A stretch of 62,492 nt of DNA from the NCBI GenBank assembly GCA_013824615.1, contig PNOC01000017.1:1-62492 (forward strand). The letters are read 5' to 3'. The notes beneath the pieces were generated by a model. That model ran no database searches, was not told the DNA's origin, and worked only from the letters and a program-made list of their open reading frames with translations. Shown piece by piece: positions 13,176 through 62,492 of this stretch (positions are counted from its first letter, which is position 1; every line of letters begins with the position of its first letter). The DNA comes from Thermodesulfovibrio sp. Its GTDB lineage: Bacteria; Nitrospirota; Thermodesulfovibrionia; Thermodesulfovibrionales; UBA6898. The position numbers were made by a program, and so were the translations under genes.

Positions 13176-16100
13176 ATGAAAAAAAAGATTTCGTTTAAGA
13201 GTATTGCCTGTGTAATCAGCCGGAAGCGGGAGGTGGTGGTCCCTTGGGTTAACAAGGTTGCAATAATTGCTGCATGTCTTGCATTCTTTCTGCTGTTCTC
13301 TTCGTTTATTTGCTCGGTTGATATCGCCTGCGCTGCATCTCCCGGTCTTGTCGCGTGGTGGCCGGGCGATGGAAATGCTCATGACATCGTTGGGGGCCAT
13401 AATGGTACCTTTGCAGCAGGTACGTATGCACCGGGCATGGCAGGTCAGGCTTTCAACTTTGATGGGACGAGTGATTATGTGGTAATACAAAACGGGCTGG
13501 TCCCCAACAATGCCAGGAATTTTACGGTAGAGGCCTGGGCATACCCCGGAGTTCTTGACAATCAGTCACGCATGATGGTTTATGGAGGATCAACTGCAGG
13601 AGAATATGAATTCCTGATCAATGACACGAACAACTATGGCTTCGGGGTCAAACTGACAAATGGGAGCTGGTATAAGGTCTCAAGTCCGGCCGCTAGTGGA
13701 AAATGGTCTCATATAATTGGTATTAGACGGGGTCAGACAATTGAGCTATGGGTTGACGGGGTTCTGAAGGCCAGCGATTCGAGCTTGGAGGATCTGGATC
13801 TTCAGGCTACCGGGAACGGTTCGAACAACTCCCGCATAGGTGCTTACAATGAATTTAATGACCAACACAAGAGTTACTGGAGCGGTTTTATTGATGAGGT
13901 CAAGATATATACTGCTGCTCTATCCAATCAGGAAATTACTACTGAGTACAATTCCGGAGTAGCCGGCCATAACAAGCCTTGCGTTCAGGCACCCTCCGGC
14001 CTTGTCTCCTGGTGGAGTGGGGACGATACTGCGCTGGATATGGTGGGTACGAATAACGGAATTTTGAGCGGTACAACTTATGATGCTCAGGCATTCAAAT
14101 TTGATGGGATTGATGATTATGTGTCTGTTCCTGCCAGCAGCAATTGGGCGTTTGGGACTGGCGATTTTACGGTAGAGTTCTGGACATTCGGTACCAGTGA
14201 CGACTTCAAGAGACCTCTTATCAACAACCGCAAGACACCGGCTTCTGACAACATGTGGGCCATCGAGATCTATGGCGTGGCAAACAGAGTAGAGTTTCAC
14301 TCAGGGCTGAATATTTTTTTGGAGGCCACCAACCTGTTAACCAGTTCCAGCTGGAATCACGTTGCCGTCATAAGGAACAGTGGTTTATTGAGTATGTATA
14401 TCAATGGGAATTTGTCCGGGAGTATAGCCAACACGACTAATTTCTCCGAGATCAACGACCTCCAGGTCGGCAGGGACATTATGGATGGAAATCAACTCCT
14501 GGGCAGAACTTTTCAGGGCCTGATGGATGAAGTTGCGATATTTAACCGCGCCCTTTCGCAGGCCGAAATACAGGCCATCTATAACGCAGGCAGTGCGGGA
14601 AAGTGCAAAGATTGCTTCATGCCCCCTTCGGGGCTTGTCTCCTGGTGGCCAGGGGAGGGAGATGCGACTGATATCTCCGGGCCTAACAATGGGACGTTTT
14701 CTGCGAACACATATGCTAACGGTCGGGTTGGGCAGGCGTTCAGCTTCGACGGGGTGGATGACTATGTCAGCGTCGGAATGCTCGGCAACGTCGGGCTGAA
14801 TGAAAGTTTTCCGTTTACTGTTTCCGCATGGATTAACGTGATGGACGTTAATGCCTATCAGGCTATTGCCGGTAATTACATGGGCGAAGGTGGCGGTACT
14901 TATAATTTCTCAACATATATCGGCATAAACAGTGGTTTACTATTTTTTGCTCTGAACCAGCGGCAGAGAGCTGGAATTTCCGTATCCACACCAATAGTCA
15001 CGGGCTGGCACCATGTTTCAGGAACCTATGATGGAAACAATATTTTTCTTTATCTTGACGGGCAACAGAAGGGCACTGCTGCGAGAAGTTTCTCAGGCTC
15101 GACTGATAATACAAGAGGATGGTACCTAGGCAACTTTTCGCCTGAGACAACAGCTGCACATGGTTATCAGTCGTCATTCATAGGCCAGATTGACGAAATT
15201 GCTACCTTTAGTCGGGCTCTTTCTATGGATGAGGTTCGGGGTGTTTATCAGGCCGGCCTGGGAGTCTGCAAATCCTGCTTCATGCCGCAGAACGGGCTTG
15301 TCTCCCGTTGGCGGGGGGAGGGGGATTCGAAAGATGCCAGGGGTATCAACAACGGAAGCGTGCACTCCGATTTTCTGGCACTGATCCTGGGACAGGCATT
15401 TAATTTTGCCGGTACGGGCGATTATGTGACTATGACGGATACCAACTTTCCTTCTGGAAACAGTCCACGGACAGTTGATTTTTGGTTCAGCACGTCTGAT
15501 GACACAACCGAACGATATATGTTCAGCTACGGTGCCGCCAATTCGAATCAACGGTTCTCAGTTGGACTTTATAGCGGCTACCTCCATGCTGAAAACAATG
15601 GGAGCGGCCTTCACGGCAGTACGCTGCTTAATAGTGTCGGGGCACACCACGCGGCAGCAACATGGGATGGATTTGCTTTGAACCTATTCGTTGACGGTAA
15701 TAAAGAAACGCTTACTCCTGTAGCAGTATCGTGGCCGGCAAGTTTAGAAACAACGCTGACAGGTCAGGCAAGCATCGGACGTCTGAATAGCGGAGGACTT
15801 TCTTACACCGGGCTCCTCGATGAAGTCGGCATCTACAACCGCGCTCTCACTGCGGACGAGATAGCCTGGAAGTACTCCTGCATAGCTGACTCAAATCCTA
15901 ACCCCTATTCGCTCACATCGCAATTCGGTATGTATCCCGGGACAACAGCAAGCTCTTCTTTTATAGTAACCGGCATTAACATGCCTCTTTCGATCAGGAT
16001 ATCGAGCATTCCGCAAAACGGCTTCTTCGGGATTAATGGCGGAGCATGCAATCTGCAGGATGCAACGGTTGTAACCGGTGATGTTGTGCAGGTCTGTCTC

Positions 16101-16481
16101 GACATTCCGGGATTTCCGCCAGGACAGCAGGTCTCAACAGAGGTTACCGTTGGGTTGGGCATTAACGTACCTCCTGCTACCTTTACGGTAACCTCAACAG
16201 ACTATGCTGTTGCCCGTGAATCGGCTGCAAGACACTACTATTTTGGCAGCCTTCAGGAGGCCTACAATAATGTCATCGACACAAATATTGACACCATCAT
16301 TGCGAAGGAGTCATTGACTCCAGGCGCACTTGACTGCAGCGATCTATCCGACCAGTCTGTCACAATCATCGGAGGATATGACCCTCTGTTCGGTCCGGGA
16401 ACAGGAGCGTTCACAACTATAACCCCGACCCTTGTTATCAGCAGGGGAACGGTGACGCTTGAAAATATCCTGGTACAGTGA
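13176..16481 (+). CDS. Exported four-LamG surface protein with C-terminal GGYD module
   Basis: Encodes 1101 aa. A long N-terminal region with a hydrophobic core (about 29-48) ends in ACAA and is probably a signal peptide. Four LamG (concanavalin-like jelly-roll) domains follow at about 55-265, 272-475, 483-700 and 702-900. Each opens with a LVSWW/GDG motif and closes with IDEVxxxxRALS. Linkers carry paired cysteines (CKDC, CKSC). A beta-rich domain (about 905-1010) precedes the shared C-terminal module (about 1013-1101) with [14 protein letters not shown] and a final [10 protein letters not shown]. LamG domains bind carbohydrate or protein ligands. ATG follows TAAGGAGG. Placement suggests a surface adhesin or sugar-binding protein (inference). 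Confidence 0.85.
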
Positions 16482-16510
16482 TGCAACCTATGGCAGAAGG
16501 GGAGGCGACA

Positions 16511-19147
16511 ATGAACAGAGGTAAGACTGCGATTTTAAAACCTGGAATAGTAACAGTTTTACAGATACTGCTTATCCTCATAAATATGTTTTTCAACCGA
16601 ACAGATTCTTCCGCGGCGCCGTTTGCGTATATTACAAACCACGGGAGCAACACGGTCTCGGTGATAGATACGGCCACAAACACGGTGGTTGGCACACCCA
16701 TTACCGTGGGAAGCGGTCCTTTTGGCGTTGCGGTCAATCCCACGGGCAGTCATGTGTATGTGACCAACGTAAATGCCCATACTGTTTCAGTAATAGAGAC
16801 AGACACAAACACCGTTGTTGAAACGATTCCGGTGGGTTATTATCCTCGAGGTATTGCGGTTAATCCCTCAGGCAGTCGGGTATATGTGGCAAATTCTGAC
16901 GATAACAATTATTTGCCTGTGGACATAGTCTCGGTGATAGACACAGCGACAAGCACTGTTATCGATACGATCGAAGTCGGAAATATTCCGTTTGGTGTGG
17001 CAATTAACTCCTCCGGCAGCCTTGTTTATGTGACAAACGACGGAACAGATAATATATCAGTGATAGACACCGCCAGCAATACGGTTATTGATACGATTGC
17101 GGTGGGAAGAGTTCCTGTGGGCATAGCAATCAATCCCTCGGACAGCCACCTCTATGTGGCACATTATCATTCTACCGCCTATTTCTCCGCGATAGACACG
17201 GCCACGCAAAGCGTTGTTGGTTCACTTTTAGGGCCTCCAGCGCCTGCGACGAGTGGCTATGTTTATGGACTGGCAGTTCATCCTATGGGCAGCCACGTTT
17301 ATGTCGCAAATGCTGCTGCTAATAATGTATCAGTTATAGAGACAGCCAATAATACCTTTGTTGGAACACCCATTGCGGTAGGAGAGTATGCTTTTGGCAT
17401 TGCGATTAATCCCTCAGGCAGCCATGTATATGTAGCAAACCACTCCGATGCTTCTGTTTCGGTTATAGAAACAGCCACGAACACTGTTGTCGGAACTCCC
17501 ATCCCGGTTGGAAATCTGCCTGTCGCCATCGGCAAGTTTATCGGGCCTCCCGAATGCGCCCCGCCTTCTGCCGGAGCTCCTTTCTGGGCGGTTTCCGGAC
17601 TGGTTTCCTGGTGGGGGGCTGACAATAATCTGCTCGATATGATGGGGACGAACAACGGGACCTATGTGGGTGTCGAGACCTATGCGCAGGGCAGCGTGGG
17701 GAAGGCTTTTTCTTTCGATGGGAGCTCTCAGTATGTTCAGGTGACGTCCCCTGCCGCCCTTCCGGTTGGAAGTGCAGCGCGCACCGTGATGCTCTGGTTC
17801 AAGACGCCGAGTTCGCTGTCCGGGGATTCAGCTCTTATACAGTATGGTACAGCCTCAGACAGCAATATGTTTGGCCTTATCTTTTCGAGTAATGACACGG
17901 GGAAGCTCTACTTTTATGGTCATAACGCCGACTTGTCCGGAACGACTTCCATCCAGCCGGATACGTGGTACCATGGTGCCGTGACGTATGATTCCTCGGT
18001 CGTCAGGCTTTATATCAACGGAAATGAAGAGGCCAGCGCACCAATCGTACTTAATACCGTACTGGATATTAATGGACTAACCATAGGCTACCGGGTCGGC
18101 GGAGCGAAATGGCAGGGGCTGATCGATGAGCCGGCCATTTTCAACCGTGCCCTGGCAGTGGATGAGATCGCTGCAATCTACAATGCCGGCAGCGCCGGCA
18201 AGTGCCGATCATGCAGCATGCCGCCTTCCGGGATGGCATCCTGGACAGCTTCCGGCCTGATTTCCTGGTGGGGAGGGAACAACAATACACTGGATACGGT
18301 GAGCGGGAACAGTGGCACCTTTATTGGCAATGGGCTATATGCTCCCGGCCGCGTTGGGTCGGCCTTCAGCTTTGACGGCGTGAGTGATTACGTTTTGATG
18401 AATCTTATTTCAACAGTCACCGATAACCTCTCGATGTCCGCCTGGGTCAAATGGGGCGGTCCTAATGCTTCGAACTCTTTCCAGAGGATATTTTACAATG
18501 GCGATTCCGGCCCGGACGGTTACGGTATCTACCTGGCGTCGTTAAATCAAAACGGAGTTCCTGATGGAACACTGACAATCCTTGTGGGAGGACATACGTT
18601 CACTTATACGGGAAGTCAACTTGCTCAGGGCGCATGGCATCACGTTGCCGCTGTCAGGAACAGCGGGACCTGGACCTGCTATCTTGATGGCATCGCATTA
18701 AGCGTTGATAATAACAATACGGCACCGAATACGCCTACCGGAAGCGCTTCCATTGGCGGCAGTTCCTATGGTAACGATATGTTTAAGGGTCTTATAGACG
18801 AAGTCCAGTTCTTCAACCGCGCCCTTTCCCCGGATAAGATTGCACTTATTGCTAACCGGGGTGGTATTGCCAACTGTTCTGTCCCGATGATCAAACGAAA
18901 GCCTTCCAATACCTTTCATGAACGATTTTCAGATGCCTTTACCGGCATACAGGACAGTGACAGCATTCTGGTGAGAGAAGGTACACTAACGGAAAATCCT
19001 GATTTCAGCAGTGCCGGAAATTCGATCAGCCTGCAGGGCGGATGCAACGCTGACTTCGTGACTGATCCGCTGAAGTATTCCACAATAAACGGCAGCCTGA
19101 CGATTACCAATGGCGGAATATCTATAGAAAATATTGTTGTCCGGTAG
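16511..19147 (+). CDS. Exported YVTN seven-bladed propeller plus two LamG domains
   Basis: Encodes 878 aa from ATG 16511, which follows GGGGAGG; an in-frame ATG at 16478 has no ribosome site. The signal peptide covers about 1-35. Residues 36 to about 350 hold seven YVTN repeats (YVTN/YVAN...[10 protein letters not shown]...NPSGSH), enough for a closed seven-bladed propeller. Two LamG domains follow (about 363-575 and 580-783), then the C-terminal module (about 794-878) ending in [11 protein letters not shown]. It lies 29 bp after the preceding LamG gene in the same direction. YVTN propellers occur in surface-layer and periplasmic proteins; the ligand here is unknown. Confidence 0.85.
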
Positions 19148-19163
19148 GAGAGAGAAAGGAACT

Positions 19164-19319
19164 TTGACAAGGATGCTTTCCAGAGATGGCATCAGTGTGA
19201 CCCTCTCCGGAGGCTTTGATGCGGACTTTAATCCCGGTGCAGGAAGCACGACGTTTGTTGGTTCTCTTTCAATCGGAGGCACCGGTAGCGTTACATTTGG
19301 AAATATTACCATAAAATAA
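19164..19319 (+). pseudogene. Orphan copy of the C-terminal GGYD module
   Basis: A short frame (51 codons from TTG 19164, preceded by GAAAGGA) encodes only the end of the module shared by the neighbouring surface proteins: SVTLSGGFDADFNPGAG, then SLSIGGTGSVTFGNITIK and stop. It starts 16 bp after the preceding gene's stop, which itself ends in the same module. The simplest reading is the remnant of a lost paralogue or of a partial duplication. A tiny expressed protein cannot be ruled out. Confidence 0.6.
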
Positions 19320-19337
19320 ACATATACGGAGGCGTGG

Positions 19338-22025
19338 ATGAAGACAACAACTGCAGTTAGAAGTATTATTCCTGGATTGTTTGTGCTGTTCGTTATAACG
19401 TTGTTTGCAGGTTTAAACACTGCATCAGCAGCGACCATAAACGTTACAACCACTGCTGACGAGCTGAATGCCAATGGGCAATGCTCGCTGCGCGAAGCAA
19501 TAACCAACATTAATGATGGGGCGAGCACCTATTCTGACTGCGCACCCACTGGCGCATATGGAATCACCGACACCATAAATATTCCCGTCGGGACATATAC
19601 CACTACTACCGGCAGTTACAACATAGCACAAAACGTCTCCATTGTTGGTACCGGGGCAGGAACCACTACCATAAACGGCGGCGGGTTGAACCGGGTGTTC
19701 TATATCACCGGTGCTTATACCGTTTCCATTTCCGGCGTTACAATCACCGGCGGCACGGCGCCAGACTTCGGCGGCGCCATTTATATGGCCGGTGTCGGCA
19801 CGCTTACTGTCTCCAACTCCACCATCACCGGCAACTCGGCTGTTGGTCCAGGCGGCGGTATTTCCAGTGGAAATTTCATCGGCGGCACGGTAAACGTCAC
19901 CAACTCCACCCTTAGCAACAACACTGCGGGTTGGGATGGCGGAGGCATTCATAGCTACACCACGATAAACGTCACCAACTCCACGGTCACCGGAAACGTA
20001 TCGATGGGCTGGACCGGCGGCGGCATTATGAACGGCGGCCATCTCGCCCTTACCAACTCGACGATCACCGGCAACTGGGCACGGGGTGGCCCGGGCGGCA
20101 GTGGCATCTATGCCGGCACCCTCACCGCCATCAATTCCATCGTGGCGAACCAGACCGTGGGCGAGGATTGTGTCGGCGTAATCACCACCTCCGGCGGTTA
20201 TAATCTGGAAAGCGCGACTTCTTGCGGGTTTACCGGCACTGGCGATATGCAGAATACAGCCCCGCTCCTCGGGCCTCTGCAGGACAACGGGGGACCGACA
20301 TTTACCCATGCACTGCTTGACGGAAGCCCCGCGATTGATAGCATCCCGAACGGGGTTAACGGGTGCGGAACAACCATAACAACAGACCAACGGGGTGTTT
20401 CACGTCCCCAACCGAGCGCCGGATTGTGCGATATGGGCGCTTTTGAGGTTGAATATCATTGTGTCCAGCCTCCCTCGGGACTTATCTCCTGGTGGGGTGG
20501 AGACAACAATGCGCTGGACATGGTGGGAACCAAAAACGGGACACTGGTGGGCGGGGTTACGTATGCTCAGGGGAAAGTTGGACAGGCGTTTAGTTTTGAT
20601 GGGATAAACGACTATATCAGTGCCAATCTTGTTTCCACTGCTACCATTGACGTTTCGATGGACGCCTGGGTTAACTGGGGCGGGCCGAATGACGCGAACT
20701 CCGTCCAGAGAATTTTTTACATCGGAAATTCCTCTTCGGATGGTTATGGCATATACCTGGATGCTGACGGAACTCTGGCTGTTCTTAAGGGAGGAAACAG
20801 TTATGACAAGACTACCGTAAAACTGACCCCGGGGGTTTGGCAGCATATCGCCGTGGTCCGTTACAATCTCACAATATGGAAGGTCTATCTAAATGCAACT
20901 CAAGTGTCAATAGCTGAGAATATGTATTCTTTTCCGGATGTCCCTACTGGCAACACTTTCATAGGTGGGAGTACTACCGGGTCAGAACCATTTAAAGGTC
21001 TGATAGACGAAGTGGAATTCTTCAACCGAACCCTCTCTGCCTCTGAGATTGCTGCCATCTACAACGCCGGCAGTGCGGGAAAATGCAGGTCCTGTGCTCC
21101 TCCGCCCTCTGGAATGGTCTCCTGGTGGGGGGGAGATAACAATGCGCTGGATAGGGCAGGAACAAACAATGGAACACTGGTAAACGGCACGACCTATGCC
21201 TCCGGCAGGGTGGGACAGGCCTTCAGCTTTGATGGGGTGGATGATTCTGTCAGCGTTGGAATGCTTGGTAATATCGGACGCAATGAAGGTAATTCCTTTA
21301 CGGTTTCAGCATGGATTAATCTTCTGGATATTAATGCCTATCAGGTTGTTGCCGGCAATTATATGGGAGAAGGAGGCGACACCGGTAATTTCTCAACATA
21401 TATGGGTATAAACAACGGTGAGATAATGTTTGTTCTGAACCAAAGACAGATAGATGGGGTCTCCATTGCCGTACCGGTAGCAAAGGGCTGGCACCATGTT
21501 ACCGGAACATATGATGGAACGAATATTGTTCTTTATCTTGATGGACAACTGAAGGGCACAGTGGTGAGAAGTTTCACCGGCTCGACTGATAATACAAGAG
21601 GATGGTACATAGGCAACTTTTCACCGGAGACAACCGCCGCACATGGGTATCAGTCGTCATTTTCCGGCCTCATCGACGAAGTCGAGATCTTCAACCGGGC
21701 CCTTTCGGCGGATGAGATCGCCGCTATCTACAACGCCGGCAGCGCCGGGCAATGCGTCGTCCCGATGATCAAGCGCGAACCGTCCAATACCTACTATGAC
21801 AGGTTTGTTGATGCATTTACGGGTGCACTGGACAGCAACAATATTCTGGTGAGGGAAGGTACAGTAACCGAAGACGCGGATTACAATAATGCCGGGGTGC
21901 TGGTCAATCTGCGTGGCGGGTGCAGCCTCGATTTCGTGCCTGATCCGCTGAAGTATTCGACCATAAACGGGAGTCTCAAGATCAGCAATGGCGGCATATC
22001 GGTAGGAAATATTATAGTCAAATAG
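19338..22025 (+). CDS. Exported CSLREA/beta-helix protein with two LamG domains
   Basis: Encodes 895 aa. The signal peptide ends at ASA-A (residue 31). Next comes a CSLREA domain (CSLREAITNIND) and a right-handed beta-helix with repeated NSTITGN-type rungs (about 100-270), ending in a choice-of-anchor-like segment with DQRGVSRPQ and CDMGAFEVE. Two LamG domains follow (about 376-588 and 588-810) and the C-terminal module (about 812-895, LRGGCSLDFV...GGISVGNIIVK). Its second LamG closely resembles the third LamG of the 13176-16481 protein, and its first resembles the second LamG of the YVTN protein, so domains have been exchanged. ATG follows ACGGAGGCG. Confidence 0.85.
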   Translation: MKTTTAVRSIIPGLFVLFVITLFAGLNTASAATINVTTTADELNANGQCSLREAITNINDGASTYSDCAPTGAYGITDTINIPVGTYTTTTGSYNIAQNVSIVGTGAGTTTINGGGLNRVFYITGAYTVSISGVTITGGTAPDFGGAIYMAGVGTLTVSNSTITGNSAVGPGGGISSGNFIGGTVNVTNSTLSNNTAGWDGGGIHSYTTINVTNSTVTGNVSMGWTGGGIMNGGHLALTNSTITGNWARGGPGGSGIYAGTLTAINSIVANQTVGEDCVGVITTSGGYNLESATSCGFTGTGDMQNTAPLLGPLQDNGGPTFTHALLDGSPAIDSIPNGVNGCGTTITTDQRGVSRPQPSAGLCDMGAFEVEYHCVQPPSGLISWWGGDNNALDMVGTKNGTLVGGVTYAQGKVGQAFSFDGINDYISANLVSTATIDVSMDAWVNWGGPNDANSVQRIFYIGNSSSDGYGIYLDADGTLAVLKGGNSYDKTTVKLTPGVWQHIAVVRYNLTIWKVYLNATQVSIAENMYSFPDVPTGNTFIGGSTTGSEPFKGLIDEVEFFNRTLSASEIAAIYNAGSAGKCRSCAPPPSGMVSWWGGDNNALDRAGTNNGTLVNGTTYASGRVGQAFSFDGVDDSVSVGMLGNIGRNEGNSFTVSAWINLLDINAYQVVAGNYMGEGGDTGNFSTYMGINNGEIMFVLNQRQIDGVSIAVPVAKGWHHVTGTYDGTNIVLYLDGQLKGTVVRSFTGSTDNTRGWYIGNFSPETTAAHGYQSSFSGLIDEVEIFNRALSADEIAAIYNAGSAGQCVVPMIKREPSNTYYDRFVDAFTGALDSNNILVREGTVTEDADYNNAGVLVNLRGGCSLDFVPDPLKYSTINGSLKISNGGISVGNIIVK

Positions 22026-22208: not shown

Positions 22209-23765
22209 ATGGCTGACGATGCATGTTCCTGCACTCCCCCGCAGCAACCGAAAGGGCTCCAGGCACTTTGGAAATACGAAGACTGGATGGCCGTCTGGGT
22301 AGGTTTCTTCATCATTGCCTTGGTCCTTGTCCTGTATCAGTTTAAAGTGGTGGACATGACCAAGGTGTCGCCCAGCTACAAGTGGGCGACGGACAGTCAG
22401 GTGTCCGGTCGTGCAGCAAAATGGAATGGGGCGATCGATCTTCTCGTTGCCGACGCAAAGGCGAAGGAGGAGATGGGGACGGTTAACCGGCTGACGCAGC
22501 TCAGGGAAGCCATAGCCGCAGGGGACCGGAAGGCCATTGAGGAGGCGTCTGCCCGTGTCGACCGCATCGGGGGTGTTCCGGGTGCTCTCGGCAAGGAGAT
22601 AAACGGCCACGCAAAGGCAGTCCCCGGAAAGGTCTTTCTGGGCGATAATATCATGAGGGTCGCCAGGATCTTCGTTGTATTATTTATCGTCGCAACGGTC
22701 GGTGCCGTCATCCTTGGCCACAAGGGAGCGAGATTTATAGCCGGCTTTCCTATCGTCTTTGCTCTTGCCTGGCTCTCCCGCTTCATTGCCGGTAATGCCG
22801 GGCCGATAGATTTAGGCATCGAATATGTTGTCTTTGCGCTGGTGACCGGTCTGGTGATCAGCAATTTTTTTACCCTCCCGGAATGGTTCATGGAGTCTGT
22901 CCGCACGGAATACTATATCAAGTCCGGTCTCGTGGTTCTTGGCGCGGGCCTGCTTTTTTTCGAGATCATCCAGGCAGGATTTCTCGGTATTATCCAGGCA
23001 GTGCTCGTTATCTTTGTTGTCTGGTATTTCTGCTTTTGGCTCTGCCGGAAACTCAAAGTCGATGATGATTTCGGTGCGATACTCTCCAGCGCGGTCTCCA
23101 TTTGCGGTGTTTCTGCTGCGATAGCCTCCTGCGGTGCTATCCAGGGTGACAAAAAGAAGCTCTCGTATGTGACGTCTCTGGTCCTTATCGTTGCGGTGCC
23201 GATGATGGTCGTGATGCCCTGGGCAGTAAAGTATTTTAATATCCCTGAAATCGTCGGCGGGGCGTGGCTCGGCGGCACACTGGATACCAGCGGTTCGGTT
23301 GTCGCTGCCGGTGCCCTTATCAGTGAGGCTGCCATGAAGACAGGGGTCATCGTGAAATTCTCACAGAACGCGCTGATGGGAGTTGCCGCTTTTGCTCTGG
23401 CTATCTGGTGGTCTTTTAAAAAAGGCGCAGAGACAGGTGAAAAACCGAGCGCGGGCGTGATCTGGGAAAGGTTTCCAAAGTTCGTGCTCGGCTTTATCGC
23501 AGCCTCGGCATTCTTTTCATTGTTTCTGCATATCGATACGGTCAATGCTACCAAGAGCACACTGAGTGAACTCCGAACCTGGTGGTTTGCTTTGGCGTTT
23601 GTCTCGATTGGGCTGGAGACCCGCTTTACGGATCTGGTCAAGATGGAGGGCGGCCGGCCGGCCCTGGCCTTCATCGTGGCGCAGGCGTTCAACGTTGTCT
23701 GGACCCTGATCCTTGCCTATCTGCTCTTCGGCGGTATTATTTTTGCCGTGCCAGATATCAGATAA
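22209..23765 (+). CDS. YeiH/UPF0324-family transporter (putative sulfur oxyanion exporter)
   Basis: Encodes 518 aa, well above the usual 330-350 for UPF0324. An N-terminal extension (1 to about 150) contains an extra membrane helix (WMAVWVGFFIIALVLVLY, about 25-42) and a soluble, helical, charged region. The family core follows with some ten helices and the signatures SSAVSICGVSAAIASCGAIQ and GGAWLGGTLDTSGSVVAAGAL. Members are annotated as putative sulfate exporters, with little experimental proof. ATG follows GAAAGGAGATAACGT. The rhodanese gene 71 bp downstream and the MauE/DoxX gene make a sulfur-redox context. Confidence 0.8.
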   Translation: MADDACSCTPPQQPKGLQALWKYEDWMAVWVGFFIIALVLVLYQFKVVDMTKVSPSYKWATDSQVSGRAAKWNGAIDLLVADAKAKEEMGTVNRLTQLREAIAAGDRKAIEEASARVDRIGGVPGALGKEINGHAKAVPGKVFLGDNIMRVARIFVVLFIVATVGAVILGHKGARFIAGFPIVFALAWLSRFIAGNAGPIDLGIEYVVFALVTGLVISNFFTLPEWFMESVRTEYYIKSGLVVLGAGLLFFEIIQAGFLGIIQAVLVIFVVWYFCFWLCRKLKVDDDFGAILSSAVSICGVSAAIASCGAIQGDKKKLSYVTSLVLIVAVPMMVVMPWAVKYFNIPEIVGGAWLGGTLDTSGSVVAAGALISEAAMKTGVIVKFSQNALMGVAAFALAIWWSFKKGAETGEKPSAGVIWERFPKFVLGFIAASAFFSLFLHIDTVNATKSTLSELRTWWFALAFVSIGLETRFTDLVKMEGGRPALAFIVAQAFNVVWTLILAYLLFGGIIFAVPDIR

Positions 23766-23836
23766 TAATTATCAGGCAATAGTATTATTTATCAAATATG
23801 GCCGAGATAAATCCGCAAGGGAAGGAGGTGAGAGAG

Positions 23837-24334
23837 ATGAAAAAGATACTGATACTCGCTTTTATCATGGTGTTTGCTGCAGGCAGTTCACTCGTGTTTG
23901 CAGCTGATTTTTCCGCCGGAGCACTCAAAAAAGTGGAGGAGCTCAAGATCCTCAGCAGAGATAAAAAGGATATCCCCGAGTCATTCGGAGGGGTAAAAAA
24001 GATCACGGCGGATGAGCTCAAGGCGATGATGGACCAGAAGAAGGCGTTTGCACTTCTGGATAACCGCGTGCCGGCAGATTTTGAGAAGGAACGCATCACC
24101 GGTGCCAAACGGCTTTCCCCTGATGACCTGCTCGATAAGGGTCTGAAGGCTGCGGAAGCGGTCGGGCTGAAGAAGTCGGACACGATTGTCTTTTATTGAA
24201 ACGGTGTGAAATGCTGGAGGTCATCCGGCGCCATCGTTCTTCTTCAGGATGCAGGGTACAAGAACCTGCTTTGGTATCGTGACGGTATGCCTGACTGGAT
24301 CAAGAAGGGTTATCCCACCGCAGAGGGTAAGTAG
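23837..24334 (+). CDS. Periplasmic rhodanese-like selenoprotein (in-frame UGA = Sec at residue 121)
   Basis: Read through the TGA at 24197-24199, the frame gives 165 aa and ends at TAG 24332-24334. ATG 23837 follows AAGGAGGTGA; the signal peptide is residues 1-22 (cut after VFA). The rhodanese fold is evident: ALLDNRVPADFEKERITGA, then DTIVFY, the UGA, then NGVKCWRSSGA and the C-terminal YKNLLWYRDGMPDWIKKGYP. In cysteine homologues the strand ends FYCNGxKCWRS, so UGA replaces the loop cysteine. A SECIS-like hairpin follows (24213-24229). Stopping at UGA would delete the active site and the conserved C-terminal third. Likely a periplasmic sulfurtransferase; dependence on selABCD elsewhere is assumed. 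The alternative is a nonsense-mutated gene. Confidence 0.85.
24213..24229 (+). promoter_or_regulatory. Candidate bacterial SECIS element
   Basis: GCTGG (24213-24217), loop AGGTCAT (24218-24224) and CCGGC (24225-24229) form a 5-bp stem (one G-T pair), extendable by a T-G pair outside. The apical loop carries GGTC, as in the E. coli fdhF SECIS that SelB recognises. The stem begins 13 nt and the GGT 19 nt after the UGA at 24197-24199, within the spacing known to work in bacteria. The hairpin is inside the coding frame, as bacterial SECIS elements are. Confidence 0.75.
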
Positions 24335-24391: not shown

Positions 24392-24577
24392 ATGAAAAAA
24401 ACATTTCAGGAAATTATCTTTATTCTGATGCTCTCGCTGTTCATTTCGCTCATGTACACGACTGCCTCACCGACAGGTATGGTTCTCCTGAAAAAAGCGT
24501 TCAGGATATACGTTCCGGATTCTCCAGCGGCAGAGAAGTCTGATCAGGCAGCGGATGTACCGGGAGACCGGAAGTGA
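24392..24577 (+). CDS. Small single-pass membrane protein (61 aa)
   Basis: Starts at ATG 24392; an in-frame GTG at 24377 is possible, and neither has a good Shine-Dalgarno. One membrane helix (about 7-25, EIIFILMLSLFISLMYT) is followed by a short outside segment and a charged tail. The stop overlaps the next start (GTGA, 24574-24577), so it is translationally coupled to the MauE/DoxX-like gene. I recognise no domain. Its place suggests an accessory subunit of that membrane protein. Confidence 0.55.
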   Translation: MKKTFQEIIFILMLSLFISLMYTTASPTGMVLLKKAFRIYVPDSPAAEKSDQAADVPGDRK

Positions 24578-25041
24578 CTGCATTTCTCTCCTGTATTTTC
24601 CGGGGCATTGTCGGCGGGATTTTTCTCATATCCGGCCTGGCGAAGATTTCTGATCCTGTGCGTTTTATGCTGACCCTCAGAGAGTTCAGACTTTTTCCCG
24701 AGATCATCGTCCCGTTCACCGCACTATATCTCCCCTGGCTCGAATTCATCCTGGGGCTCTGTGTCCTCGTCGGTCTTATGCACAGGACTGCGGCCCTGAT
24801 GCTTTCCTGTCTTAACGGGATATTTACCCTTGCCATTGTCTCACTGATTGTCCGGGGCATCGAGATTGATTGCGGCTGCTTCGGCCTGCTTGCGGATATC
24901 TTAAAGCTGCCGGATATGGCGGATTATAAAGCGGTTATAAGAAATTGTATTTTTATCGCGCTCTGTTATGCTATTTATAAAGCAAAGAAAACCAGTCTTT
25001 CATTGGAAGGCTATATTCTTAAAGCTCGTAGACGGCTGTAA
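24574..25041 (+). CDS. MauE/DoxX-family redox-associated membrane protein
   Basis: Encodes 155 aa with four predicted membrane helices. It has the MauE/DoxX pattern: FRGIVGGIFLISGLAKISDP at the first helix, then PWLEFILGLCVL, and a CGCFG cysteine pair (about residue 107) before the last helix. MauE/DoxX proteins act in the membrane in disulfide or sulfur redox chemistry; DoxD-like members form thiosulfate:quinone oxidoreductase. GTG 24574 overlaps the preceding stop. A role in passing electrons to or from the adjacent Sec-rhodanese is plausible but inferred only from neighbourhood. Confidence 0.7.
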   Translation: MTAFLSCIFRGIVGGIFLISGLAKISDPVRFMLTLREFRLFPEIIVPFTALYLPWLEFILGLCVLVGLMHRTAALMLSCLNGIFTLAIVSLIVRGIEIDCGCFGLLADILKLPDMADYKAVIRNCIFIALCYAIYKAKKTSLSLEGYILKARRRL

Positions 25042-25059: not shown

Positions 25060-25794
25060 GTGGATTTTGGAGCTTTCGGTGCCATAAGCTTTGATCTCAA
25101 ATTTCTTTCGGCGTTATTCAGTATCATTATCATTGATCTGATTCTGGCCGGAGACAATGCGGTTGTTATCGCCCTGGCGGTGAGGTCATTGCCTGCTGAA
25201 CAGAGAAAAAAGGGGATCATCTTTGGTTCGGGTGCTGCAGTTTTATTAAGAGTTGTTGCCACTTTTTTTGTGGCGCAACTGCTTACCATAAGTTTTATCA
25301 AGCTTACGGGCGGCATTTTGATACTATGGATTGCGGTGAAGCTTTTTATGGAGGGCGTGCCTGAAGAGAAACTTGAGAAAAAAGCCTCGACCGTTGCCCA
25401 GGCCGTAAAAGTCATCGTTATTGCAGATATTACCATGGCCATCGACAATATGCTGGCGGTTGGGGGAGCCTCGCACGGGAATCTCGTGCTCCTTATTTTT
25501 GGACTCGGACTGAGCATTCCCCTTGTTGTTTTTACGAGCAACTTATTATCCATACTGATGGACAAATATCCGGTGATTATCTATATCGGTGCTGCTGTGC
25601 TGGGCAAGGTTGGCGGAGAAATGATCATGACGGATCCCCTGACCATGAGGAGCCTCAGCCCTGACAAGTGGATAATATATGCGGTCGAGGCTTTTTTTGC
25701 GGTCGGCGTGATTGCTGCGGGCAAGCTGTGGATGAAATGGAAGATAGCGAAGGCTGAAAAAAATGAACAGACCCATGATAGCAGCAGTGAATAG
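25060..25794 (+). CDS. TerC-family integral membrane protein (YjbE-like)
   Basis: Encodes 244 aa. It has the TerC signatures near the N-terminus (IIIIDLILAGDNAVVIALAV) and in the second repeat (IVIADITMAIDNMLAVGG), each placing an Asp-Asn pair in a membrane helix, with about seven helices overall. TerC proteins handle metals, notably Mn(II) export or loading of exported proteins; older names refer to tellurium resistance. GTG 25060 follows AAAAGGAG and lies 18 bp after the MauE-like stop, so it can be co-transcribed with the sulfur genes. The charged C-terminal tail is cytoplasmic. Confidence 0.85.
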   Translation: MDFGAFGAISFDLKFLSALFSIIIIDLILAGDNAVVIALAVRSLPAEQRKKGIIFGSGAAVLLRVVATFFVAQLLTISFIKLTGGILILWIAVKLFMEGVPEEKLEKKASTVAQAVKVIVIADITMAIDNMLAVGGASHGNLVLLIFGLGLSIPLVVFTSNLLSILMDKYPVIIYIGAAVLGKVGGEMIMTDPLTMRSLSPDKWIIYAVEAFFAVGVIAAGKLWMKWKIAKAEKNEQTHDSSSE

Positions 25795-25869: not shown

Positions 25870-26673
25870 ATGGCAATCTTAACCATATCGCGGGAGTTTG
25901 GAAGCGGCGGCAGAGAAATAGGCCTGGCGACGGCGCAGAAGTTGCACTATGCCTATATCGACAAAGAGCAGTTGATGGTGGATATGCGGGCTGACGGCAG
26001 CGAGTGGGTGGAATGGGGGAAGACCTTTGACGAGCACCGGCCGACCATATGGGAAAAATATGACTGGTCCTTCAGAGGCTTCGGGGCACTGCTGCAAAGT
26101 CATATCCTGGACCATGCGCTCAGCAACAACACGGTGATCATGGGAAGAGGCGGGAACTTTCTGCTGCAGGATATCCCTCATGCGCTCAGCATTCGGGTGA
26201 AGGCTCCCCTGGATCAGAGAATTGAGAGGATCATGGTAAGGGAAGCAGTGGATAAAGACACTGCCCGCTGGCTCTGTGAAAAGACGGACAAAGAAAGATC
26301 AGGTCAGATCTATCTGCTTTATGGCAGGCACTGGGATGACCCTGCAGCGTACGATATGGTCTTTGATACTGGGGTCAGGACGCTGGAGGAAATAACAGCA
26401 CTCATTATCAGTACTCTTTCAGAAAAAGAGAAGGCGCATACCGAAGCAGCAGAAAAACTTCTCAACACAAAGGCCGTGGCGGCCAGAATAAAGTCTGAGA
26501 TACTTACTGACCACGCGCTGTTCGTTCCGGTTCTCGATGTCTTCCTTGAAGGAGATCAACTCATCCTTCGAGGTGTTACCCATAGCCCTCAGGAGCATAA
26601 AAAGATAGAGGAAAAGGCAAAGAGGATCGCGGGGGATATCCCCCTGAAGTGCGAACTGCATTACCGGGGATAG
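25870..26673 (+). CDS. Cytidylate kinase-like protein with C-terminal BON-like domain
   Basis: Encodes 267 aa. The N-terminal two-thirds match the cytidylate-kinase-like family: P-loop-type ISREFGSGGREIG (5-17), IMGRGGNFLLQD (about 92), and a lid region with DKTD..ERSGQIYLLYG. It lacks the standard Cmk GPSGAGKST loop, and a true cmk is present at 38005, so its substrate is probably different. The last 65 residues (VAARIKSEI...LRGVTHSPQEHKKIEEKA) look like a BON domain, normally found in envelope or phospholipid-binding proteins. The combination is unusual. ATG follows TTGGAGGAACT. Confidence 0.75.
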   Translation: MAILTISREFGSGGREIGLATAQKLHYAYIDKEQLMVDMRADGSEWVEWGKTFDEHRPTIWEKYDWSFRGFGALLQSHILDHALSNNTVIMGRGGNFLLQDIPHALSIRVKAPLDQRIERIMVREAVDKDTARWLCEKTDKERSGQIYLLYGRHWDDPAAYDMVFDTGVRTLEEITALIISTLSEKEKAHTEAAEKLLNTKAVAARIKSEILTDHALFVPVLDVFLEGDQLILRGVTHSPQEHKKIEEKAKRIAGDIPLKCELHYRG

Positions 26674-26951: not shown

Positions 26952-29900
26952 ATGTCAATGTCTGATGTTCGTGTGAAGAATCTGGTTATGCTGATTATGG
27001 TGCTATTTTCATTTTTTGTAATATTCAGCCTTGCCGGGCTGGCCTCTGCCGAAACCTACCAGTTTCAGCTCAAGTGGGGTTCTTCCGGAGCCGGAAACGG
27101 AGAGTTTAACTATGCCTCACGGGTCGCCGTTGCTCCATCCGGCTCTGTGTATGTGACTGATCACAGCAATAATCGTATCCAGAAGTTTGATATGAACGGG
27201 GGATACATAGGGCAATGGGGCTCGGCCGGGCCGGGAGAAAGTCAATTTAATAATCCTATGGGAATAGCGGTGGATACCTTTGGCAATGTCTATGTTGCCG
27301 ATACACAAAATAATCGCATCCAGAAGTTTGACTCTGATGGAGGTTTCATCCGGCAGTGGGGCGGCCCTGGTGGGGCTGATGGCGAATTTACTCAGCCCTT
27401 TGCTGTGGCTGCCAGTGCGTCAGGCCACATTTATGTTGCCGAAGATGGCAATCGGGTGCAGAAGTTCGACCTTGACGGCAGCTTCATTACAAAATGGGGG
27501 TCCTCGGGGACAAATCCCGGGCAGTTCTCCGGCCCTCGCGGTATTGCTGCAGACACCTTCGGCAATGTCTATGTGTCTGAGTACTTCAACAACCGGATAC
27601 AGAAGTTCACTTCCGACGGAGGCTACATAAGGCAGTGGGGCACTGCAGGGCCGCTTGATGGCCAATTTAATATGCCCTATGGCTTGGCCGCGGATGCAGC
27701 CGGGAATGTATTTGTGGTGGACCACGGCAACGGACGCGTGCAGAAGTTCGACCCGGAGGGTAACTTTATCAGCAGGTTCGGCTCCGGGGGGTCCGGGGAT
27801 GGCCAACTATCGTTCCCTACCGGTGTTGCTGTGAATGCTTATGGCAGCGTCTACGTGGCGGATATGTATAACAACCGTGTCCAAAAATTCTATCTTCCGG
27901 TTTGTGTAGCCCCTCCTTCCGGACTTGCAGGCTGGTGGACGGGGGACGGGAATGCAAACGATATCAGCGGCGGCCATAATGGGACCTTGATGAACGGCGC
28001 AACATATGAAGCCGGTCGGGTCGGGCAGGCCTTCAGTTTCAACGGCGCAAATGATTACGTGGCAATCCCCGCTCATGTTTCCATGAACCTTGGCACGGAG
28101 TTTACGGTCGATTTCTGGATGCAGCCGGCGGTGACTATTGACCCCTCAGACCCTCTGATGCATACCCTTCTTTTCAAGGGAGATTCCAATCTGATCGACA
28201 TAGCCAACGGCGATGGACGTATTGAAATTATCGGGCCTGCACAGCGACCCACCTCAGTCACGAGCACCTGGACCGCTGGCCAGTGGTATCACATTGCCGT
28301 AACATTTGATTCAGGCGGCTATAAGATATTTGTCAACGGGTTACAGGAAGGAAGTTCTCCGGATACCTATTCTATATTCGGAAATATGAGCGAGCTTGAT
28401 CTTGGGGGCGGGTTCGCCCCTGATACAGATTTCAACGGCCTTATTGACGAAATTGAGGTCTTCACCCGAGCCTTGTCTGATCAGGAGATTATCGCCATCT
28501 ATAATGCCGGCACCGCCGGTAAATGCAAACCCTGCATAGCTCCTCCTTCCGGCATGGTTGCATGGTGGGCGGGGGACGACAACGCCGAGGATATGCTGGG
28601 CATTAGCCCTGGCACATTGATGAATGGTGCAACCTTTGCCGACGGCAAGGTCGGCCGGGCGTTCAGTTTCAGCGGGCCGGAGGCTTCCGTTACGGTGCCT
28701 GCCAGCAGTTCCTGGGCTTTTGGAACCGCTGACTTTGCAATTGACTTTTGGGCATACAGTACATCTTTTGCTGCCCGTCGTCCTCTAATCAACAACCGAA
28801 AGACTGGAGCTGGTGACAATATGTGGGCCATAGAGATTTATGGCTCGGCAAATATGGTAGAGTTCCATTCAGGGTCGTCGATATACCTGCAGGCCACCAA
28901 CCCGTTGCTCAATTCGAACTGGAACCATATTGCCGTGACAAGATCTGCTGGTACGCTGAGCATTTATATAAATGGGACCCTGTCCGGGAGTGCAGGCGTA
29001 GGGAGCGATTTTTCTCAAGTCAATGATCTGCAAATAGGCAGGGACATTATGTCGGGGAACCAACTCTCCGGCGGGAGTTTTCAGGGTCTTATCGACGAAG
29101 TAGAAATCCATAACCGCGCACTGACCGCAGCCGAGATCGCTGCCATCTATAACGCTGGCGGCGGAGGCATGTGCAAAGCCTGTACTGCTCCGCCTTCCGG
29201 CATCGTCGCCTGGTGGAAGGCGGATGGCAATGCGGTTGACGCTGTGGGGACAAACCATGGGACGCTGCAGGGTGGAATGGGATACGTTCCCGGCAAGGTA
29301 GGTCAGGCATTCAGTTTTAACGGAGTGAACAATTATGTGCAGACACCTCCTACGAACAGTATTCCCTTCGGAGGAGCGGCAAGGACCCTGGACTTCTGGA
29401 TGAAAACAGATGATCAGCAGGATGGAAAAGCGCCAATCGTCTACGGGGCACACACTTCGGAGAGTGCATTTTATGTATCACTGTTCGGCGGAAAAGCCTG
29501 CATTGGATATTGGGGAGGTGGTCCGCTTGAAGTCTGCGGTTCAATGCCTGTCACCAATGGGGAATGGCACTATATAGCGCTCACGTACGAGTCCGGGGAG
29601 GCCAGGCTTTTTGTTGACGGAGTGCTGGACGCCGGCGTGACGAGATCGTATAATACTTCGCTTACGGAGACCGTACTTATCGGAGGGGGCGTTTCGGTTT
29701 CTTATTATTCCGGTTTTGTCGATGAGATCGGAATCTACGACCGTGCCCTATCCGCCCCGGAGATCGCCGCACTGTATAACGCGGGCAGCACAGGCAAGTG
29801 CTTTAACGCCGACACGACTCCCAACGGGTTTATCTTCGAACCCGTTACCGGTGCGACGCCGAATGTATCGTACAATGCCGGCATGATCACGGTAACCGGC

Positions 29901-30635
29901 ATAAACGTACCGGTTGAGGTCACGGTGAGTGGAGGGGAGTATTCTATCGGCTGCACAGGGACATTCACCACTGCCCCGGGCACGGTTGTCAATGGGAATA
30001 CGGTCTGCGTGAGGCAGATGTCTTCTCCAGACTACTCGACTACTACCACCACGACCCTGACCATAGGAGACGGCAGCGCCGATTTCAATGTAACGACCAT
30101 GCTATCACATACTCTCAATGCGGTTGCTGTGCCTTCCGGGGGGAAGACCTTTTCCCCATCATCCTGGATAGTTGGTGACGGTGGTAATATCGTTATTAAT
30201 ATAGAAGCGAATTCGCCGTACTATTTTATTTCCGCGACAGATACCTGCGGTGAGGGCGGAACTCAGAACGGGACAGTCGATGAAAACAACATGTCATACA
30301 GCGTTCCCTCCGTGACCATCGACTGCAGCGTTACGGTGCAGTATGCGGAATACCTCGTCAGACGGCTCCTGGCAGAAGTGCCAACCGGACATTACCTCTC
30401 TATACAGGCCGCATACGAGAGTCCCATAAGCGGCGAGGAGATACAGGCCCAGCAGACAACGTTTCCGGGAGATCTGAATCTGAACCTGCCGGTTTCTCTG
30501 ACGTTGAGGGGCGGATACGATTCCGGCTTTGTACCCAATGCGGGAGGCTTCACGACCATCGGCGGAATGATGACAGTTATACAGGGGACGGTGACGGTGG
30601 AGAATATAACAGTGCATGCAGTAGAGCAAAAATGA
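26952..30635 (+). CDS. Exported NHL six-bladed propeller plus three LamG domains
   Basis: Encodes 1227 aa, the largest protein in the window. A signal peptide (about 1-38, ending ASAE) precedes six NHL repeats (about 40-315; units such as FNNPMGIAVDTFGNVYVAD followed by NNRIQKF), a complete six-bladed propeller. Three LamG domains follow (about 318-520, 530-735, 747-950), then two beta-rich domains (about 955-1140) and the C-terminal module (about 1140-1227: YLSIQAAYESPISGEEI, LRGGYDSGF, TVTVENITV). The second LamG is close to the second LamG of the 13176-16481 protein. ATG follows GGGAGGAATT. Probably a surface adhesin or glycan-binding protein. Confidence 0.85.
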   Translation: MSMSDVRVKNLVMLIMVLFSFFVIFSLAGLASAETYQFQLKWGSSGAGNGEFNYASRVAVAPSGSVYVTDHSNNRIQKFDMNGGYIGQWGSAGPGESQFNNPMGIAVDTFGNVYVADTQNNRIQKFDSDGGFIRQWGGPGGADGEFTQPFAVAASASGHIYVAEDGNRVQKFDLDGSFITKWGSSGTNPGQFSGPRGIAADTFGNVYVSEYFNNRIQKFTSDGGYIRQWGTAGPLDGQFNMPYGLAADAAGNVFVVDHGNGRVQKFDPEGNFISRFGSGGSGDGQLSFPTGVAVNAYGSVYVADMYNNRVQKFYLPVCVAPPSGLAGWWTGDGNANDISGGHNGTLMNGATYEAGRVGQAFSFNGANDYVAIPAHVSMNLGTEFTVDFWMQPAVTIDPSDPLMHTLLFKGDSNLIDIANGDGRIEIIGPAQRPTSVTSTWTAGQWYHIAVTFDSGGYKIFVNGLQEGSSPDTYSIFGNMSELDLGGGFAPDTDFNGLIDEIEVFTRALSDQEIIAIYNAGTAGKCKPCIAPPSGMVAWWAGDDNAEDMLGISPGTLMNGATFADGKVGRAFSFSGPEASVTVPASSSWAFGTADFAIDFWAYSTSFAARRPLINNRKTGAGDNMWAIEIYGSANMVEFHSGSSIYLQATNPLLNSNWNHIAVTRSAGTLSIYINGTLSGSAGVGSDFSQVNDLQIGRDIMSGNQLSGGSFQGLIDEVEIHNRALTAAEIAAIYNAGGGGMCKACTAPPSGIVAWWKADGNAVDAVGTNHGTLQGGMGYVPGKVGQAFSFNGVNNYVQTPPTNSIPFGGAARTLDFWMKTDDQQDGKAPIVYGAHTSESAFYVSLFGGKACIGYWGGGPLEVCGSMPVTNGEWHYIALTYESGEARLFVDGVLDAGVTRSYNTSLTETVLIGGGVSVSYYSGFVDEIGIYDRALSAPEIAALYNAGSTGKCFNADTTPNGFIFEPVTGATPNVSYNAGMITVTGINVPVEVTVSGGEYSIGCTGTFTTAPGTVVNGNTVCVRQMSSPDYSTTTTTTLTIGDGSADFNVTTMLSHTLNAVAVPSGGKTFSPSSWIVGDGGNIVINIEANSPYYFISATDTCGEGGTQNGTVDENNMSYSVPSVTIDCSVTVQYAEYLVRRLLAEVPTGHYLSIQAAYESPISGEEIQAQQTTFPGDLNLNLPVSLTLRGGYDSGFVPNAGGFTTIGGMMTVIQGTVTVENITVHAVEQK

Positions 30636-57439: not shown

Positions 57440-57469
57440 TTGACAAACGTATTCTCTTTCGTTTTAAAT
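57440..57469 (+). promoter_or_regulatory. Promoter of first cobalamin-riboswitch operon
   Basis: A perfect -35 TTGACA (57440-57445) is followed after 18 bp by TTAAAT (57464-57469). The riboswitch aptamer begins about 8 bp further, as expected for a leader RNA. Confidence 0.65.
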
Positions 57470-57476
57470 TAAATTA

Positions 57477-57747
57477 ACTTTCAGGTGCCGCAAGGCATAA
57501 GAGGGAATCCCGTGAGGAGCAATCCAAACCGGGAGCGGTCCCGCCGCTGTAACCGGGACGAAAGCCGAAATGCCACTGTCTGCGCAAACAGACGGGAAGG
57601 CCGGTGAGTAGGATGAACCGGGAGCCAGAAGACCTGCCTGAATGATTCGTATCCGATCGTTACAAGTACCTTCCCGCGGATGGGAGGTGAGGATGAAGCA
57701 AACAGGGTGCAATCCTCAAGGCATTTAATGTCTTGAGGTTTTTTTTT
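57477..57747 (+). promoter_or_regulatory. Cobalamin riboswitch with terminator expression platform
   Basis: The class signatures are all present: P1 strands TTCAGG (57480-57485) and CCTGAA (57637-57642), the core GAGGGAATCC, the highly conserved GGTCCCGCCGCTGTAACCGGGACG (57538-57561), then GCCACTG, GGGAAGGC and the B12-box end AGCCAGAAGACCTGCC. Between aptamer and gene a GC-rich stretch precedes the terminator at 57714-57747. Adenosylcobalamin binding should favour termination, so the operon is repressed when B12 is plentiful. Confidence 0.96.
57714..57747 (+). terminator. Riboswitch-controlled terminator
   Basis: CCTCAAG (57714-57720) pairs with CTTGAGG (57732-57738). The stem extends inward through GCAT/ATGT to a 3-nt loop, followed by nine T (57739-57747). 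It lies 29 bp before the methyltransferase start. Confidence 0.9.
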
Positions 57748-62238: not shown

Positions 62239-62268
62239 TTGACAAACTTTCAGAGCGTGTGTTTTTAT
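62239..62268 (+). promoter_or_regulatory. Promoter of second cobalamin-riboswitch operon
   Basis: TTGACA (62239-62244) is followed by an AT-rich TTTTAT (62263-62268) at 18 bp. The aptamer begins a few bases further, the same arrangement as at 57440. Confidence 0.55.
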
Positions 62269-62274
62269 TAGATT

Positions 62275-62492
62275 AACTTTCAGGTGCCGCAAGGCATAAG
62301 AGGGAATCCCGTGAGGAGTAATCCAAACCGGGAGCGGTCCCGCCGCTGTAACCGGGACGAAAGCCGAAACGCCACTATCTGCGCAAGCGGACGGGAAGGC
62401 CGGTGAGTAGGATGAACCGGGAGCCAGAAGACCTGCCTGAATGATTCGTATCCGAGTACGATATGGCTATACGCATTCGCCAATCGTCATAA
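62275..62492 (+). promoter_or_regulatory. Second cobalamin riboswitch (expression platform cut by window end)
   Basis: The aptamer (62275-62442) is complete and differs from the first copy at only about five positions, most of them in one hairpin (CTATCTGCGCAAGCGGACG here). Identity extends past the aptamer through GATTCGTATCCGA, then stops. The regulated gene lies beyond the window; a ThiC-like bza synthase, cobT or a cobalamin-transport gene would be expected. Confidence 0.95.

Follow-up and report, generated by a model that had tools for sequence, protein, structure and literature searches.

The window analysed here, a whole stretch of 62,492 nucleotides, contains on its forward strand a predicted rhodanese selenoprotein gene with the following features in and around it.

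22209-23765, + strand: YeiH-family transporter (Cons_hypoth698, putative sulfate/sulfite exporter; PF03601, 2.1e-44)
23823-23829, + strand: Shine-Dalgarno sequence AGGAGGT, read from the sequence, preceding the ATG at 23837
23837-24334, + strand: predicted gene of a rhodanese selenoprotein (165 aa, residue 121 being Sec), ATG at 23837 and TAG at 24332-24334 (from translation and homologues)
23837-23902, + strand: probable Sec-type signal peptide MKKILILAFIMVFAAGSSLVFA, judged by eye from the translation
24197-24199, + strand: TGA codon predicted to be read as selenocysteine, residue 121 (TGA in nine genomes, TGC or TGT in others)
24212-24214, + strand: TGC codon of Cys126, the second loop chalcogen (Cys or Sec in 54 of 54 homologues)
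24213-24229, + strand: SECIS-like hairpin, 6-bp stem GCUGGA (24213-24218)/UCCGGC (24224-24229) with loop GGUCA (24219-24223)
24392-24577, + strand: small probable membrane protein of 61 aa, no family (ORF, profile search and neighbourhood comparison)
24574-25041, + strand: MauE/DoxX redox-associated membrane protein (PF07291, 6.9e-24)
25060-25794, + strand: TerC family membrane protein, YjbE type (PF03741; TIGR03717 above cut-off), operon membership uncertain
25870-26673, + strand: cytidylate-kinase-like protein (PF13189, 1e-38), operon membership uncertain

The rhodanese frame is interrupted at the catalytic-loop position by a single TGA, whose coordinates, as given in a sequence-only reading of this DNA, proved exact on re-reading; from there the frame runs on for 44 further codons to the TAG stop. 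The Pfam Rhodanese profile (PF00581) spans the TGA, covering residues 57-156 (3.5e-16; 59.9 bits versus a cut-off of 22.2), and the claimed alignment of the TGA with the cysteine of homologues is borne out by relatives that carry TGC or TGT as the codon of residue 121. In the predicted structure (pLDDT 90), whose best fold matches are rhodanese structures, U121 directly follows the strand 117-120 and a helix starts at residue 128. Standard annotation ends the gene before the active site, a loss that had also been foreseen, so that the enzyme goes unrecognised in these genomes; the 120-aa product called instead would, according to the model, lack the catalytic loop. The probable signal peptide suggests that the rhodanese is periplasmic. 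TGA is otherwise a usual stop in the window, ending 20 of the 37 long ORFs, which rules out a general reassignment of UGA.

The genes named as a check by the sequence-only reading, selA, selB, selC and selD, with a lack of selB or selC as grounds for dropping its claim, are all present in the organism's own 3.6-Mb genome: profile matches identify selB (369 bits) adjoining selA (613 bits) and selD (354 bits), which reads through one TGA, and selC is a tRNA-Sec (69.5 bits) whose anticodon is UCA. Only one SelB lies above the cut-off, and among the candidate tRNAs checked the UCA anticodon occurs in tRNA-Sec only. Across the class, SelB was found in 218 of 230 genomes (206 over the cut-off), all nine TGA genomes included; it is so nearly universal that its presence is of no use as a correlate of the TGA. 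The selD gene (L013:1501-2427; G000:C13:4687-5613) has its in-frame TGA in the context CAG-U-AAKF, making the selenophosphate synthetase itself a probable selenoprotein; the hairpin following this TGA in the own genome has no GGUC loop. One tRNA-Cys (L002:1493-1591; G000:C43), with the anticodon GCA and a body resembling that of tRNA-Sec, scores 48.3 bits, above the Rfam tRNA-Sec cut-off, and by its sequence looks like the selC* tRNA-Cys known from Nitrospirae (PMC7609411).

The hairpin at 24213-24229 begins 13 nt past the UGA, with the loop beginning at 19 nt; the core folds at -9.0 to -9.6 kcal/mol, and a 44-nt stretch at -16 kcal/mol (z -2.3). Bacterial SECIS rules (PMC13188914) specify a loop of 3-9 nt with a G in the first two places, a stem of 4-16 bp, a distance of 16-37 nt from the UGA and an energy of -7.5 kcal/mol or lower, and the hairpin agrees with them in loop, stem, distance and energy, as had been supposed from its geometry. 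Taken by itself it is only modest, 1-7% of synonymous recodings of the same peptide folding as well, and the evidential weight is therefore placed on the comparison across genomes. Eight of the nine TGA genes pass these rules with an unbulged stem, and the hairpin of locus L054 reaches -10.3 kcal/mol once a bulge is allowed. In L054 the closing A-U pair is swapped for C-G, in L058, L059 and L065 U-A replaces U-G, and the 3' register of the 17-nt hairpin shifts by one base between subgroups. Under one common relaxed threshold, a hairpin with a GGUC or AGUC loop lies at the same distance in 9 of 9 Sec genes versus 3 of 37 Cys genes (Fisher 2e-7, relatedness ignored); among six relatedness-independent pairs a mean of 4.6 agree and none disagree, which is too few pairs to reach 0.05.

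The nearest relative found by searching genome contigs, at 92% identity, has TGA at the same codon, and other relatives have TGC or TGT. Among the 230 genomes of the class, TGA stands exactly at residue 121 in nine, own genome included, from six families (loci L036, L037, L038, L052, L053, L054, L058, L059 and L065). Cys forms are found beside TGA forms, and a tree of 54 homologues indicates at least six switches between Sec and Cys. Selection past the TGA is strong: over the 44 codons compared with L037, dN is 0.03 and dS 1.41, with 19 third-position differences, two at first positions and none at second positions. A Cys homologue (L070; G158:C10:150939-151412) meets an in-frame TAA towards the end of the alignment, at about residue 163, and hence has a shorter C-terminus. 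A plasmid search returned distant matches only.

On this comparative sequence evidence we consider it very probable that the product of the locus is a single-domain rhodanese of the periplasm with a selenocysteine, inserted at the UGA, as its catalytic nucleophile. The hairpin would direct this insertion, with SelB and Sec-tRNA(UCA) carrying it out. A pseudogene, or a sequencing error turning TGC or TGT into TGA in a dead or artefactual gene, might come to mind since TGA is one base away from both codons and most of the TGA genomes are metagenome assemblies; but the presence of TGA at this codon in eight other genomes shows that it is not a base-calling error, a possibility that the sequence-only reading had itself raised, the TGA genes carry the hairpin, and frame and stop are intact. 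The nine-genome TGA together with the selection beyond it refutes such an origin, to which we attach practically no weight. A selC*-type tRNA-Cys might also decode the UGA as cysteine, giving an ordinary Cys rhodanese, as the score of the genome's own tRNA-Cys above the tRNA-Sec cut-off and the selC* tRNA-Cys with a UCA anticodon known in other bacteria (PMC7609411) would allow. That tRNA-Cys, however, has the anticodon GCA, on which ground it was rejected, and UCA was found only on tRNA-Sec among the candidates checked, beside a single SelB over the cut-off; the chance of cysteine insertion is thus very remote. UGA termination always competes with selenocysteine insertion, and so the UGA could act mostly as a regulatory stop that ends a functional 120-aa protein, insertion being minor or selenium-sensing. 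This is improbable, because, judged by the structure model, a product of 120 aa would be missing both the catalytic loop and the end of the fold, and because the existence of Cys alternatives makes the full-length product look like the one selected.

The loop of the predicted selenocysteine rhodanese reads FYUNGVKC, with the pattern U-N-G-x-K-C-W (UxxxxC), and positions 121 and 126 are both occupied by Cys or Sec in every homologue. The second invariant loop Cys probably pairs with Sec, and the sequence leads us to propose a redox-active Sec/Cys pair capable of a Se-S or S-S bond. It is proposed that the selenolate of Sec121, at the start of the loop, would take up sulfane sulfur and that Cys126, at the other end, would resolve the Sec121-bound sulfur to a selenenylsulfide; that the loop serves both as a redox pair and as a sulfur carrier we regard as an evenly balanced proposition. 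A selenolate would be expected to react differently with thiosulfate, polysulfide or selenium species. Another set of rhodaneses from the same taxonomic family places Sec at position 126 (CRGxGU, CxxxxU; loci L042-L044 and L046-L050), with the TGA about 15 bases into the loop (near position 1700 in L048, for example), and in this Nitrospirota group a clean GGCUGC-GGUC-GCAGCC hairpin follows the TGA. A phylum-wide sample of another phylum, entered via L020, contained three CxxxxU rhodaneses with TGA (L088, L092 and L097) and no UxxxxC member.

Predictions of selenocysteine rhodaneses go back to 2005 (PMC1088965), and five forms of rhodanese selenoprotein were listed in 2026, namely forms 1-4 (UxxS, UxxG, CxU and UxxG) and TsoB (UxxxxU) (PMC13188914). 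TsoB (NF045694) is the best-scoring curated family for the 165-aa rhodanese (5.5e-15), although at 54.5 bits the match stays far below the cut-off of 805; the two share the five-residue spacing of the loop chalcogens and Sec at the first position, whereas TsoB has two Sec in a fusion of 572 positions and the protein described here is a stand-alone Ux4C form with one TGA. Forms 1-4 have in common with it a Sec in the rhodanese domain and a bacterial SECIS past the UGA, but the UNGxKCW loop (UxxxxC) and the conserved YeiH operon set it apart from them. The CxU family rhodanese_LYCAU (NF041203) reaches 45.2 bits against a cut-off of 115, and the FYUNGVKC loop differs from LYCAU, which places the protein outside that family. 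TIGR03865, the PQQ-dependent catabolism-associated CXXCW protein, resembles the CW end of the loop and the C-terminal part (residues 97-163, 8.9e-13) at 48.5 bits, below its cut-off of 128. PspE, the periplasmic rhodanese of E. coli, is likewise small, exported and single-domain and converts thiosulfate to sulfane sulfur (PMC10215317), and it provides a working model of the chemistry; its nucleophile, however, is Cys49 and the similarity is weak (26 bits). By sequence, the UxxxxC form and its sulfite-type transporter operon look like an undescribed variant of the predicted selenocysteine rhodaneses, absent from the forms listed in PMC13188914. They add a UxxxxC Sec form and a natural exchange of Sec and Cys that has recurred, for the most part inside a single operon context; this exchange, with the Cys orthologues as ready controls, makes directly testable why a sulfur-transfer enzyme uses selenium.

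Most homologues that exceed about 50% identity preserve the order YeiH-rhodanese, whether they are Sec or Cys forms; in a few homologous loci the YeiH match is weak or lies downstream. Against TIGR00698 the YeiH-family protein scores 75 bits, under the cut-off of that family. MauE and TerC genes are frequent near homologues without being constant: the TerC gene adjoins the rhodanese gene in several relatives, and MauE is missing from several loci. On a Plesiomonas plasmid, a Cys rhodanese adjoins MauE/DoxX. YeiH confers resistance to sulfite in Salmonella (PMC12880088), and the own genome contains dsrA (552 bits), so that sulfite is a likely internal metabolite. Rhodanese chemistry converts sulfite and sulfane sulfur to thiosulfate (PMC10215317), and with the YeiH operon and dsrA this leads us to propose a periplasmic role in sulfite and sulfane-sulfur handling. 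The rhodanese and the YeiH-type transporter would act in the periplasm on sulfite that has been exported, or on other sulfur oxyanions, forming for example thiosulfate from a persulfide and sulfite, and the rhodanese might be re-reduced via redox proteins of the membrane, the neighbouring MauE/DoxX being one example. This part of the scheme, including the possible re-reduction by MauE/DoxX, is tentative, the substrate being suggested by the neighbouring genes only. Should the sulfite link be true, the supply of selenium and the handling of sulfur oxyanions would be coupled in subsurface Nitrospirota.

A serious rival, though on balance an unlikely one, is that the Sec protein serves periplasmic thiol-disulfide or selenium-oxyanion reduction and not sulfur transfer. 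The Cx4C/Ux4C loop with Sec at one or the other position depending on the clade, the MauE/DoxX neighbour and the naming of TsoB, the best-scoring curated family, as a rhodanese/DsbD fusion (PMC13188914) are all consistent with reduction, but the modelled fold and the position of the loop match those of sulfur-transferring rhodaneses, and the most constant partner gene encodes a transporter of the sulfur-oxyanion type. A wider reading can be offered tentatively: rhodanese selenoproteins with a two-chalcogen loop, in which Sec occupies either position according to lineage (Ux4C, Cx4U, Ux4U), may form a hitherto unlisted group in Nitrospirota whose loop acts as a selenenylsulfide redox switch and which, from the YeiH operon, handles periplasmic sulfite and sulfane sulfur.

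Very large ORFs made of repeated units, LamG-like by eye, lie on both flanks of the operon (13176-22025 and 26952-30635), and the window further contains two cobalamin riboswitches and one SAH riboswitch, at 57466-57655, 62265-62454 and 361-449.
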